DNA of 64,000 nucleotides from Thermoleophilia bacterium (GTDB taxonomy: Bacteria > Actinomycetota > Thermoleophilia > Gaiellales > Gaiellaceae), in contig JAHDVS010000001.1 of assembly GCA_023382435.1 (NCBI GenBank), positions 1-64,000 of the forward strand, given 5' to 3'. The notes below the pieces were generated by a model. That model saw only the letters and a program-made list of their open reading frames with translations. It was not told the DNA's origin and did no database searches. A program made the position numbers and the translations under genes. Shown here in pieces: positions 44,656-49,949 of the stretch (positions are counted from its first letter, which is position 1; each line of letters begins with the position of its first letter).

Positions 44656-45714
44656 TTGAGCCCGGAGCTGCGCACGCCCTGGCGGATCGGTCCGGTCGAG
44701 GTTCCGACCCGCGTCGTCCTCGCCCCGATGGCGGGTGTCAGCGTCCAGGCGTTCCGGCGCCAGGGACGGCGCTTCGGTGCCGGCCTCGTCTGCTCGGAGA
44801 TGGTGAGCTGCGCGGGCCTCGCGCACCGCAACGAGCGCACGCAGAGCTACCTCCTGATCGCCGCCGACGAGCATCCGCTGTCCGTGCAGATCTTCGGCGC
44901 CGACCCGGACGCGATGGCCGAGGCGGCCCGAATAGTCGAGGCTGCGGGGGCCGACATCGTCGACCTGAACCTGGGCTGCCCGGTCAGAAAGGTCACGAAG
45001 ACCGGCGCCGGGGCAACCCTGCTCGAGGATCCGGACCTGGCGAGCCGGATCGTCGACGCGGTAGCCCGAGCGGTGTCCGTTCCCGTCACCGTGAAGATGC
45101 GCAGAGGCCTCGAGGCCGGCTCCCGGGCCGCCCTCGCAGCGGGCCCCCGGCTCGTCGAGGCGGGCGCGCAGGCGCTGGCCCTCCATCCGCGCTCCGCGAC
45201 GCAGATGTACTCGGGGGCGGCCGACCATGCCCTAACGGCAGAGCTCGTGCAGATCGTCGGCGTGCCCGTGATCGCCTCCGGCGACATCGGCTCCCGCGAG
45301 CGCGCCCGCGAGGTGCTCGAGCAGACCGGCTGCGCGGCCGTCATGGTCGCCCGGGCTGCCCAGGGAAACCCGTGGGTGATCTCCGAGATCGTCGACGGCG
45401 CATCCGAGGCCCCGAGCAGGGCGGAGGTGGCCGGGGAGCTTCTCGCCTTCATGAGCGAGACGGCCCGTGAGCTCGGCGAGCGACGCGCGACCGGCTTCCT
45501 GAAGAAGTTCTACGGGTGGTACCTCGGTCACGGGCGCTTCCCCAAGCCCTTCAAGCAGGAGCTGCTCGGACTCGCGACCGTGGCCGAGGTCGAGCGTCGC
45601 ATCCTCGCCGCGGAGCCCGCGGCAGCGGACGTGCGCGACCGGCTCCTGGCCGGGGCCGCGAGGGGTGACGAGACCCTGCTGGCCTTGCCGGTCTCCGCCC
45701 ACGGGGGCGGCTAG
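44656..45714 (+). CDS. dusB: tRNA-dihydrouridine synthase, DusB-like
   Basis: 352 residues from a TTG at 44656; TATCAT at 44641-44646 lies 9 nt before it and there is no ribosome site. The FMN barrel shows RVVLAPMAGVSVQAFRRQGR, ADIVDLNLGCPVRKVTKTGA with the active-site Cys, and HPRSATQMYSGAADHALT. A C-terminal helical RNA-binding part follows. It reduces uridines in tRNA D-loops using NADPH. The start is inferred from the conserved APMAG distance. Confidence 0.92.
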   Translation: MSPELRTPWRIGPVEVPTRVVLAPMAGVSVQAFRRQGRRFGAGLVCSEMVSCAGLAHRNERTQSYLLIAADEHPLSVQIFGADPDAMAEAARIVEAAGADIVDLNLGCPVRKVTKTGAGATLLEDPDLASRIVDAVARAVSVPVTVKMRRGLEAGSRAALAAGPRLVEAGAQALALHPRSATQMYSGAADHALTAELVQIVGVPVIASGDIGSRERAREVLEQTGCAAVMVARAAQGNPWVISEIVDGASEAPSRAEVAGELLAFMSETARELGERRATGFLKKFYGWYLGHGRFPKPFKQELLGLATVAEVERRILAAEPAAADVRDRLLAGAARGDETLLALPVSAHGGG

Positions 45715-45736
45715 CGCACGCCGTACAATCCGCGAC

Positions 45737-48700
45737 ATGGCGGTCGTGACAGGCGAGCGCCGCATCGTCACCGTCCTCTTCGCGGACATCGTCGGCTCGA
45801 CCGCGATCGCGGAGACGCTCGGTGCCGAGCGGTCGAAGCTCCTCGTCGACGAGGTGATGCACGTCATGGGCTCGGAGGTCGAGCGCTACGAGGGCACGGT
45901 CGCCCAGTACAGCGGCGACGAGCTCTACGCCGTCTTCGGCGCGCCGGTGGCGCACGAGGACGACTCCGAGCGAGCCGTCCGGGCCGCCGTTGCGATCCAG
46001 CGGTCGCTCGGCCGCTACGCGGCCGAGGTGCGGGACGCCTACGGGATCGAGCTCTCGGCGCGGATCGCCATCAACACCGGCCCGGTCGTGATCCGCCCGG
46101 ACAGCGATGACCCGTACAACGCCCTCGGCGACACGGTCAACGTGGCCGCGCGGATCCAGAAGCTCGTCGGCGGGGGCGAGATCGTGGTCGGGCGCGAGAC
46201 GAAGGCCCAGGTCGAGAGCTGCTTCGAGCTCGAGTCGATGGGCCCCCAGACGCTCCGTGGTCTCAGCGGCACGGTCGAGGCGTTCCGTGTCCTCGGCACC
46301 GCGGATGGCGGCCCCACGCCCCCGCCCTGCGCCCTCGTCGGGCGCGACTTCGAGCTGGCCGTACTCGAGCGCGTCCTCGACGGGCTCCTCGACGGTCGCG
46401 GCGCGATCGTCACCGTCCTCGGCGAGCCGGGCATCGGTAAGACCCGGCTCGTGCTCGAGGTGCGCTCACGCTACAGCGACCGTGTCCGCTTCCTCGAGGG
46501 GAGAGGCGTCTCCTACGCCCAGGCGCTGCCGTACTGGCCGATCCGCGACCTGCTGCGGGAGCTCGTCGGCGTGGATGCCTCGGCGCCCGAGACGCGCGTT
46601 CGCCTCGAGCTGAAGGCCGAGCTCGCGCGCGTTCTCGGCGAGGAGGCGGACGCGGCCTACCCGTTCCTCGCCGCCCTGCTCGGGCTCGCGCTCGAGCCCG
46701 AGGCGGGCGCCGCGCTCGCCGAGCTGAGCCGCGAGAGCGTGCAGCGCCAGACGTTCGACCGTTTCGGCGAGCTCGTCTGTCGCCTCGCGCGAGAGCGACC
46801 CGTCTGCCTCGTCCTCGAGGACCTCCACTGGGGGGACGACTCGACGCTCGAACTGGTCGAGGCGATCCTCCCGGCCACCGAGCAGGAGGCCGTCGCGATC
46901 GTGCTCTGCTACCGCGGCGAGCCGGAGCATGGCTCGTGGCGGCTCGGGGAGCGAGCGCGCCAGCGGCATCCGCACCGCTACCGGGAGCTCGAGCTCCGGC
47001 CCCTGCCCGAGGACGCCAGCCTGTCCCTTGTCCACGTCCTCGCCGACGCGGAGCTCCCGGACCCGGTCGCACGCCTGCTCGTCGACCGGGCTGGCGGCAA
47101 CCCGTTCTTCCTCGAAGAGGCGCTCAGAGATCTCGTCGAGCGAGGGACGCTCCGCCGTGCCGGCGACCGCCTCGAGCTCGCCGTCGACGAGACGGAGCTC
47201 TCGGTGCCGCTGCTCGTCCAGGGCGCCCTCCAGGCCCGCCTCGACAGGATCGACCCGGGAACGCGGGAGGTGCTGGGCGTGGCCGCGGTTATCGGTCGCA
47301 CGTTCGCGATGCCCCTGCTCGAGCGCGTGGTCGGAGCGGAGCGGCTGCTGCCGGCGCTGACCGAGCTCCAGCGGCTCGACCTCGTCGTCGAGACGAGGCG
47401 GCGGCCCGCGCCGGAATACCGCTTCCGTCACGGCCTCGTTCAGGAGGTCGCCTATTCGAGCCTGCTCGAGACGAGAAGGCGCAAGCTCCACCGGCGCGTG
47501 GGCGAGGCGCTCGAGCAGCTCGTCGCCACGGCACCGGAGTCCGCGTACGGTCTGCTCGCCCGTCACTTCAGCGAGGCCGACCTGCCGGAGCGCGCGGTCG
47601 ACTACCTGCTGCACGCCGGGGATGCCGCCCGGGCGCTGGGCGCCGAGCAGGCGGCGCTCGAGGACTACGGTCGCGCCCGCGACTTCCTCGTGCGGCTCGG
47701 CGACGAGCGGCGAGCCCGCGAGACGCTGTTCAAGATCGCCCTCGCCCACCACCTCGCCTTCGACTTCGAGCGGGCCGAGCAGGCGTACGACGAGGCGTTC
47801 TGCTGCCGGGTCGAGGAGCGCGTGCAGCTCGCGCCCACGAGGACGCTCGAGCTCGGAGTGCGCCGCCCCGGCGACCTGATCCCCGGCAGCGTCTACTCGG
47901 CGGACTCGCTGTTTCTGACCGAGCTCCTGTTCCGCGGGTTGCTGATGGTGGACGCCGATCTCGGGGTCGTCCCGTCGCTCGCCGACAACCTCCGCGTCTC
48001 CGGGGACGGCCTCGAGTACCTGTTTCGCCTGCACGAGGGGTTGCGCTGGAGCGACGGGCAAGCGCTCACCGCGGAGGACTTCGCCTTCACCTGGCGGTCG
48101 ATGCGTGAGGAGGAAGCGCTGACGTCGTTCCACCTGGAGAACCTCGAGTCGGCCCGCGCCCTCGACGACCGCACGCTCGAGATCAGGCTGCGCGCCCCGT
48201 GCAACTTCTTCCCGTACCTGCTCGCGTCGGCGTGGACCTACCCGTGGCCACGGCATCGCTGCGAGGAGCTCGGTCCCGACTGGCGCCTGCCCGGGAACCT
48301 GGTCGGCAACGGTCCGTTCGTGCTCGCCGAGCTCGGCCCCGATCAGGCCCTCCTGACCGCCAACTCGCACTGGCTCGGGCCGCGCGGGAACGTGCGCGAG
48401 ATCCGCCTGTCGTTCCAGGACAGCGACGCCGACATTGCCGGAGCGTGGCGTGAGGGACGCTTCGACGTCTGCACCATCCACGAGCCGACGCTCGAGAGCG
48501 ACCCCGATACGCTCGGGCGGGTGATCCCGGAGCTCTCGACCCGCTACATCGGCTTCCGGGCCGACCGGCCGCCTTTCTCGAGCGAGCTCGTCCGCAAGGC
48601 GTTCGCCCACGCCGTCGACCGCGAGCGCCTGCTCGCGAGCTTCTCGAGCTGGCAGCGGCCGTCCGTCCGGGGCGGCCTCGTACCGCCGGCGATGCCGGGG

Positions 48701-49240
48701 CACTCGCACCGGATCGCCCCCGAGCACGACCTCGAGCTGTCCCGGCGCCTGCTCGCCGAGGCGGGACACGAGGGAGGGAGCGGCCTACCCGAGCTCGTTC
48801 TCTCCGTCCCGAGCTGGCTCGCGCCGGCCGCCGGATTCGTCGAGCAGTGGGCCGAGCTCGGGACGAGCGTGCGCGTCGTCCCGATCGACAGCCACTGGGA
48901 TGTCCCCGACGCGGCCGACCTCTGGGTCTCGAGCTGGTCGGCAGACTACCCCGACCCGGACGGGTGCTTCCGCGGTCTGTTTCGCCTCGACCTGCCGCTG
49001 GCCCGCGACGAGGAGCTCATGGAGGCGCTCGACGAGGCGCGCGGGCTCACCGATCGCGCCGAGCGCATGCGCCGCTACCAGGAGCTCGATCGGCTCATCG
49101 TCGGCGAGCGCACGCTGCTGCTCCCGATCTCCTACGGGCGCTCGATGCTCGTGCACCGCACCTGGGTCGACGGGGTCTGGGCCAATGCGCTGTCGAAGGC
49201 GCACCTCGACGGCGCGATCGTCAACCGGCCGGGTGGCTGA
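45737..49240 (+). CDS. Nucleotide cyclase / STAND-type ATPase / peptide-binding-protein fusion
   Basis: 1167 residues, one frame. Residues 8-170 are a class III cyclase domain: metal Asp17 in VTVLFADIVGST and Asp61 in QYSGDELYAVFG, and the catalytic GDTVNVAARI (131-140). The usual purine-specifying Lys before the second Asp is replaced (AQYSGD). A Val-Gly-Arg entry (200) leads to an AAA/STAND ATPase with Walker A 229-236 (GEPGIGKT) and Walker B LVLEDLHWGDDS, then helical TPR-like repeats to about 690. Residues about 697-1150 are a family 5 solute-binding domain (LIPGSVYSADSLFLTELLFR, LRWSDGQALTAEDFAFTWR, DLWVSSWSADYPDPDG). No signal peptide or membrane helix exists, so the binding domain would be cytoplasmic. 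TACAAT lies 7 nt before the ATG. Confidence 0.88.
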   Translation: MAVVTGERRIVTVLFADIVGSTAIAETLGAERSKLLVDEVMHVMGSEVERYEGTVAQYSGDELYAVFGAPVAHEDDSERAVRAAVAIQRSLGRYAAEVRDAYGIELSARIAINTGPVVIRPDSDDPYNALGDTVNVAARIQKLVGGGEIVVGRETKAQVESCFELESMGPQTLRGLSGTVEAFRVLGTADGGPTPPPCALVGRDFELAVLERVLDGLLDGRGAIVTVLGEPGIGKTRLVLEVRSRYSDRVRFLEGRGVSYAQALPYWPIRDLLRELVGVDASAPETRVRLELKAELARVLGEEADAAYPFLAALLGLALEPEAGAALAELSRESVQRQTFDRFGELVCRLARERPVCLVLEDLHWGDDSTLELVEAILPATEQEAVAIVLCYRGEPEHGSWRLGERARQRHPHRYRELELRPLPEDASLSLVHVLADAELPDPVARLLVDRAGGNPFFLEEALRDLVERGTLRRAGDRLELAVDETELSVPLLVQGALQARLDRIDPGTREVLGVAAVIGRTFAMPLLERVVGAERLLPALTELQRLDLVVETRRRPAPEYRFRHGLVQEVAYSSLLETRRRKLHRRVGEALEQLVATAPESAYGLLARHFSEADLPERAVDYLLHAGDAARALGAEQAALEDYGRARDFLVRLGDERRARETLFKIALAHHLAFDFERAEQAYDEAFCCRVEERVQLAPTRTLELGVRRPGDLIPGSVYSADSLFLTELLFRGLLMVDADLGVVPSLADNLRVSGDGLEYLFRLHEGLRWSDGQALTAEDFAFTWRSMREEEALTSFHLENLESARALDDRTLEIRLRAPCNFFPYLLASAWTYPWPRHRCEELGPDWRLPGNLVGNGPFVLAELGPDQALLTANSHWLGPRGNVREIRLSFQDSDADIAGAWREGRFDVCTIHEPTLESDPDTLGRVIPELSTRYIGFRADRPPFSSELVRKAFAHAVDRERLLASFSSWQRPSVRGGLVPPAMPGHSHRIAPEHDLELSRRLLAEAGHEGGSGLPELVLSVPSWLAPAAGFVEQWAELGTSVRVVPIDSHWDVPDAADLWVSSWSADYPDPDGCFRGLFRLDLPLARDEELMEALDEARGLTDRAERMRRYQELDRLIVGERTLLLPISYGRSMLVHRTWVDGVWANALSKAHLDGAIVNRPGG

Positions 49241-49241
49241 C

Positions 49242-49949
49242 GTGGGCTCCGAGACGCGCGTCGCGCTCGTGACCGGGGCGAACCGCGGTATCGGGCTCGA
49301 GATCGCCCGCCGGCTCGCCGCCGCCGGTCTGACCACGTACGCGACCGCGCGGGACCCCGCCGCGGCCGAGCGAGCAGCCACCGGGCTGGCCGGGGAAGGA
49401 TTGCCCGTTTTCGGGCGCCAGCTCGACGTGACCGACCAGGCAAGCGTGGAGCGGCTCGCCGAGGAGCTTGGACGCGATCCGGGCCGGATCGACGCGCTCG
49501 TCAACAACGCCGGCGTCCTCATCGACCACGACTGGACCGCCGCCGAGCCGGATCTCGAGCTCGTACGTCGGACGCTCGAGACGAACCTGCTCGGCACCTG
49601 GCGGGTGACCGCCGCGTTCCTGCCGCTGATGCGCCGTCGCGGCCACGGGCGGATCGTCAACGTGTCCACGAGCATGGCGCAGCTCTCCTCGATGGGGGGC
49701 GGCTCCCCCGGCTATCGCACCTCGAAGACGGCGCTGAACGCACTCACCCGCGCGCTGGCGGCGGAGCTCGCGGGCACCGACGTGCTCGTCAACTCGATGG
49801 ATCCGGGCTGGGTGCGTACCGACATGGGCGGGGAAGCCGCGCCGCGCTCGATCGGGGAGGGCGCGGACACCGCGGTCTGGCTCGCCACGCTGCCCGGGGG
49901 CGGCCCGTCCGGCGGCTTCTTCCGCGACCGCGAGCCGATCCCCTGGTGA
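49242..49949 (+). CDS. Short-chain dehydrogenase/reductase
   Basis: 235 residues. The Rossmann motif RVALVTGANRGIGLEIARRL, the NNAGVLIDHD strand, catalytic Ser in VNVSTSMAQLSS and YRTSKTALNALTRAL (Tyr-x3-Lys) are complete. Plant-like SDRs with this pattern reduce carbonyls with NADPH; the substrate is unknown. GTG at 49242 is used; a second in-frame GTG at 49233 overlaps the end of the fusion gene, so the two are probably co-transcribed. Confidence 0.88.
   Translation: MGSETRVALVTGANRGIGLEIARRLAAAGLTTYATARDPAAAERAATGLAGEGLPVFGRQLDVTDQASVERLAEELGRDPGRIDALVNNAGVLIDHDWTAAEPDLELVRRTLETNLLGTWRVTAAFLPLMRRRGHGRIVNVSTSMAQLSSMGGGSPGYRTSKTALNALTRALAAELAGTDVLVNSMDPGWVRTDMGGEAAPRSIGEGADTAVWLATLPGGGPSGGFFRDREPIPW

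Follow-up and report, generated by a model that had tools for sequence, protein, structure and literature searches.

A class III cyclase, a STAND ATPase and a family-5 solute-binding domain fused in one actinobacterial chain: a candidate cytoplasmic receptor cyclase

Within the 64,000-nucleotide stretch of Thermoleophilia DNA analyzed here (the window), an uninterrupted frame on the forward strand runs from 45737 to 49240, ends with TGA at 49238-49240 and encodes a product of 1167 aa, a fusion of a cyclase, a STAND ATPase and a solute-binding protein (SBP). Upon re-reading of the ORF, the coordinates and the unbroken 1167-codon frame given in an earlier note on this DNA proved correct. The ATG at 45737 is taken as the start, because the frames of orthologues close just upstream of it and a -10-like hexamer ahead of it is kept in all 12 genes of its own subfamily (clade A). 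An upstream GTG at 45665 was ruled out, since the orthologue frames close short of it and the -10-like box directly precedes the ATG. The hexamer, TACAAT at 45724..45729 (+), was recognized by conservation, and its first base is at -13 from the start codon. In each of the 12 clade-A genes, which belong to two families, it begins between -11 and -13; the window's family has TACAAT or TATAAC, and family f2 has TAGACT, CAGACT or CACACT. It is kept although the upstream genes differ between genomes. This conserved position makes it likely that the fusion gene has its own promoter and a leaderless mRNA. A long antisense frame at 46466-48769 (-) is unsupported as a gene and is most easily explained as a shadow frame in GC-rich DNA. 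Downstream, a short-chain dehydrogenase frame occupies 49238-49949 of the window, with a likely GTG start at 49242, one base past the stop codon of the fusion gene. No such frame was found ahead of coaX in the relatives read, so that it resembles a local insertion; it may be translationally coupled to the fusion gene.

The presence of three domains in a single chain, proposed earlier, is confirmed by Pfam matches that are all above the curated cut-offs. The first domain, aa 10-183 (45764..46285, +), is a class III nucleotide cyclase catalytic domain, identified by its match to Guanylate_cyc (PF00211, E 5e-16) and by alignment to solved cyclases. The metal-binding Asp17 and Asp61 and the transition-state Asn135 and Arg139 are invariant in 16 of 16 aligned rows; these residues, together with the homology of the catalytic domain, place the protein in class III. 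In the alignment to solved cyclases, the canonical purine-specifying Lys and Asp/Thr are not present: Gln57 aligns with the substrate Lys of CyaB/CyaC-type cyclases, and Asn128 with the second purine residue. The Gln/Asn pair is invariant across the 12 clade-A genes. In a second subfamily (clade B, described below), the sites hold mostly Asp, with Ala, Gly or Thr, and a Lys is found one position before the Asp. The specifying Lys is missing from every fused protein with a readable site, and the first purine site in unfused relatives can be Lys, Gln, Asp or others. Hence the remark in the earlier note that the Lys is absent holds, but the absence is not peculiar to this protein, residues other than Lys being common in the cyclase-STAND family of the phylum. 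Non-canonical purine residues do not exclude membership of class III, because such variation is known within the class. In the cyclase Ma1120, mutating the specifying residues shifts the preference between ATP and GTP (PMC4215837). In the solved chain of M. tuberculosis Rv1900c, an Asn is aligned at the Lys site. Rv1900c (Castro et al. 2005) and Rv0386 (Sinha et al. 2005) are both reported to be active adenylyl cyclases, the purine sites of Rv0386 reportedly being Gln/Asn. Since the metal and transition-state residues are kept, these two proteins are reportedly active and the preference of Ma1120 is mutable, the fusion cyclase is likely to be catalytically active. cAMP would be the better guess for its product; Gln57 and Asn128 themselves do not reveal the substrate.

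The second domain, aa 200-388 (46334..46900, +), is the core of a STAND-type ATPase (AAA_16, PF13191, E 1.5e-24). The Walker A (GEPGIGKT) and Walker B (LVLEDLHW) motifs and a downstream GGNPF at aa 453-457 are invariant or almost so in the alignment, which places the protein in the AAA_16 branch of STAND ATPases. A short TPR-like helical stretch with a linker covers aa 601-691 (47537..47809, +), where TPR_12 matches weakly in orthologues.

The rest of the chain, aa 692-1167 (47810..49237, +), is a complete OppA/DppA-like SBP of family 5, identified by Pfam and by matches to PDB chains. SBP_bac_5 (PF00496) matches aa 744-1080 above the cut-off (E 1.3e-54, 186 bits) over profile positions 2-359 of 368, and phmmer pairs aa 716-1147 with positions 29-499 of an OppA chain from the PDB (E ~1e-26). 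Judged by these matches, the C-terminal part is essentially an entire mature binding protein. No signal peptide is found, the N-terminus of the chain being the cyclase, and no transmembrane segment either; the top 19-residue Kyte-Doolittle mean is 1.66 and is located inside the cyclase. Because the chain starts with the cyclase and has no 19-residue window with membrane-like hydrophobicity, it should be cytoplasmic. The family-5 fold without a signal peptide, described in the earlier note, is thus borne out. Lipobox or Tat-type leaders, which the fused copies lack, are present on stand-alone SBPs from this genome and its class. With no export signal and no transporter among the tested neighbors, the domain does not qualify as the SBP of an ABC importer.

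The binding cleft is conserved in part. The OppA sequence WCADY aligns with WSADY here, W1067 corresponding to Trp417 and D1070 to Asp420 in the numbering of the 3tcf chain. We take Asp420, which is 419 in mature numbering, to be the contact of the peptide alpha-amino group. In clade A, D1070 is found in 12 of 12 proteins and W1067 in 11 of 12, and the WxxD[YF]PDP region is conserved. The position of Arg414 of the OppA chain, presumably the contact of the peptide C-terminus, is Val1064 here. With the N-terminus Asp kept and the C-terminus Arg replaced, the pocket appears only partly OppA-like. Since the Trp-x-x-Asp of OppA is retained, the ligand of the window clade probably has a free alpha-amino group and is oligopeptide-like. 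In the second subfamily, wherever the motif could be located, the position of the OppA-type Asp is taken by Gly; by this substitution the ligand is probably a different one, and by the other residues at the purine sites the product is perhaps different as well. A structure model made from a three-sequence alignment has a mean pLDDT of 45.7, too low to be reliable.

The fusion is not confined to the window. The database search called for by the earlier note finds the same three Pfam domains, in the same order, in members of both subfamilies, and in at least 35 genomes the cyclase/AAA and SBP parts are in one frame, although contig ends truncate a few of these frames. Besides the source genome, 11 genomes of the order, from families f1 and f2, have a full-length clade-A orthologue; the matches cover residues 1-1163 of 1167, with identities of 52-63% in the search and 51-62% globally. 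The second subfamily (rows L017-L020, L081-L086 and L090-L098), at 37-39% identity, is present in f1 and in three further families of the phylum (f19, f22 and f53). Three other rows of this subfamily, L058, L062 and L066 (G246:C100, G278:C113 and G281:C201), have one internal stop codon each, due to decay or to draft-assembly error. At L126 and L130 (G030:C24 and G025:C292), one or two more cyclase-AAA genes lie within a few kb of the fused genes, which suggests local clusters of cyclase-AAA proteins. L073, L075, L077 and L078 were considered as further fusions and rejected; only the SBP matched Pfam, and they look like ordinary SBPs in over-long GC-rich frames. Viral contigs have no relative of the fusion and only one distant SBP, and plasmids have only distant SBPs, at no more than about 29% identity among the matches listed.

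Could the chain be an artefact of assembly or annotation, in which a frame error near 47826 has joined two genes, one for a cyclase and one for a binding protein? The source genome is a draft in 79 contigs, but at least 35 independent assemblies, drawn from several families, read through the junction in frame, the linker region is conserved, and the dus and coaX neighbors are kept in relatives. The in-frame assemblies refute the frame join, and we give the artefact practically no credence. The earlier note had also allowed for homologues split into two genes by a stop and a start at the junction; no such break is seen in these relatives.

In the window's family, the gene lies between dus and coaX in several genera, and these shared flanks argue for vertical inheritance within the family. 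The neighbors differ in f2 and in the second subfamily. The synteny contains no transporter or peptidase gene, the neighbors being housekeeping genes. An inventory of the genome gives two class III cyclases, four cNMP-binding domains and three family-5 SBPs. Thus components for a cyclic-nucleotide response exist in this genome, and the fusion protein may be one of just two sources of cyclic nucleotide in it. The other two family-5 SBPs have lipoprotein leaders. The second class III cyclase is at C54:3664-4197; its locus (L002/L133/L136, G000:C54:1643-4197) includes an adjoining same-strand gene for a CRP-like cNMP-binding protein.

In a tree of SBPs, a branch supported at 99/95 sets 29 of 29 fused sequences apart, the unfused SBPs being thinly sampled and on long branches. 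Since the fused SBPs form one supported clade, the fusion probably arose once. In a tree of the cyclase/AAA part, made by a quick method, the fused proteins form two adjacent clades joined at 83. Two apparently unfused rows within these clades, L016 and L097, are contig-end truncations, and L104, the sister of clade B, is a genuine cyclase-STAND-TPR protein. The cyclase tree taken alone is compatible with two separate fusions, which may have occurred; the simplest account would be one fusion, plus either its loss from L104 or a branch that is slightly out of place. L104 has a TPR_12/TPR_MalT array of ~400 aa (with a weak TPR_MalT score) at the place of the SBP. This long array suggests a sensor swap, in which the captured SBP replaced the long TPR sensor of a cyclase-STAND-TPR ancestor. 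In five related gene pairs (Nei-Gojobori), the cyclase has a dN/dS of ~0.07-0.27, AAA/TPR one of 0.10-0.29 and the SBP one of 0.09-0.42. Every domain is under purifying selection, dN/dS being below 0.45 throughout the five pairs. The highest dN is that of the SBP in four of the five pairs, and such faster change fits the expectation for a sensor.

Of the suggestion in the earlier note that a binding protein was captured as an internal ligand sensor, the capture as a C-terminal sensor-like module is supported. We consider it rather probable that the protein is a receptor cyclase, soluble and cytoplasmic, whose OppA-like SBP couples the level of a ligand to a cyclic nucleotide. The SBP would serve as the ligand-sensing end in place of a TPR sensor, and its closure upon ligand binding would shift the STAND ATPase between an ADP-closed and an ATP-open (oligomeric) state. 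The shift would unite the cyclase domains as the dimer that class III catalysis requires. The cytosolic level of the ligand would thereby be turned into that of a cyclic nucleotide, most likely cAMP, to be sensed by the cNMP-binding proteins of the cell. The protein is probably an internal nutrient (peptide) sensor. We are more tentative, at slightly less than even chances, about a wider class of cyclases that act as cytoplasmic receptors, their captured oligopeptide-binding protein setting cAMP or another cNMP, via the STAND ATPase, according to how much of a peptide-like ligand is in the cell, and the two subfamilies sensing different ligands.

Two other readings accept the fusion but not this coupling. 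The SBP might be a protein-interaction or structural module that binds no small ligand, the cyclase/STAND switch being triggered by, for example, a partner protein or the nucleotide state. Its rate of evolution, the fastest of the domains with dN/dS up to 0.42, would agree with this, as would the missing OppA-type Arg for the C-terminus, the difference between the subfamilies at the N-terminus Asp and the lack of transport genes in synteny. However, the fold is retained at its whole length, purifying selection acts on the SBP in every pair, and the Trp-x-x-Asp of the cleft is conserved in the window clade without an obvious structural reason; we therefore regard such a module as unlikely. Alternatively, the cyclase could be dead and the protein a ligand-regulated STAND ATPase or scaffold, as the want of a purine-specifying Lys throughout the readable fused proteins might indicate. 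We find this a little more unlikely still: D17, D61, N135 and R139 are invariant, Rv1900c has Asn at the Lys site, and Rv1900c and Rv0386 are reportedly active.

Close to the fusion among known systems are the cyclase-AAA_16-TPR proteins, which include L104 and others of the closest unfused relatives. Like the fusion, they are soluble and begin with a class III cyclase, with a STAND ATPase and helical repeats behind it, but they end in a long TPR or HTH region where the fusion has a complete OppA-like SBP. Rv0386, for instance, is a cyclase-STAND protein with a C-terminal HTH regulator (PMC9552081). The TOMM kinase/cyclase model TIGR03903 scores 271.9 bits over residues 5-662 against a cut-off of 705.75, and the kinase domain is absent. 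With OppA/DppA of ABC importers the fusion shares the Pfam family, the fold length and the Trp-x-x-Asp; unlike them, it lacks a leader or lipobox, linked permease genes and the Arg for the peptide C-terminus, and its SBP sits behind a cyclase/ATPase. In MalT-like regulators, a STAND ATPase is gated by a C-terminal ligand-binding sensor, but the sensor of MalT is a TPR superhelix and its output is DNA binding, whereas here they would be an SBP and a cyclase. SgrR and DsvR are cytoplasmic proteins with an N-terminal HTH and a C-terminal SBP_bac_5 that is believed to respond to a metabolite inside the cell (PMC13060122; PMC4021124). Likened by domain description, they share with the fusion a cytoplasmic C-terminal SBP_bac_5 without an export signal, but their output is the N-terminal HTH, and they have no cyclase/STAND, ATPase or TPR parts. 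Nor is the fusion of the SgrR type, Pfam finding no HTH in it and its N-terminus being a cyclase with AAA_16. A survey of SBPs indicates that their profiles match cytosolic signaling proteins too (PMC9602780).

The general picture that emerges is that both halves of the protein have precedents: SgrR and DsvR provide one for a family-5 domain that senses from within the cytoplasm, and cyclase-STAND-TPR is an established type. Neither a union of a cyclase-STAND protein with a family-5 SBP nor a coupling of the family-5 sensing principle to a cyclase/STAND switch was found in the open-licence literature searched. To our knowledge, very few bacterial cyclase-STAND proteins have a known ligand. A sensor fold whose ligands can be screened directly would make such a switch testable with a defined small molecule, and would also carry over to second-messenger enzymes the role of internal sensor that transport-type binding proteins have in LacI, LysR and SgrR.
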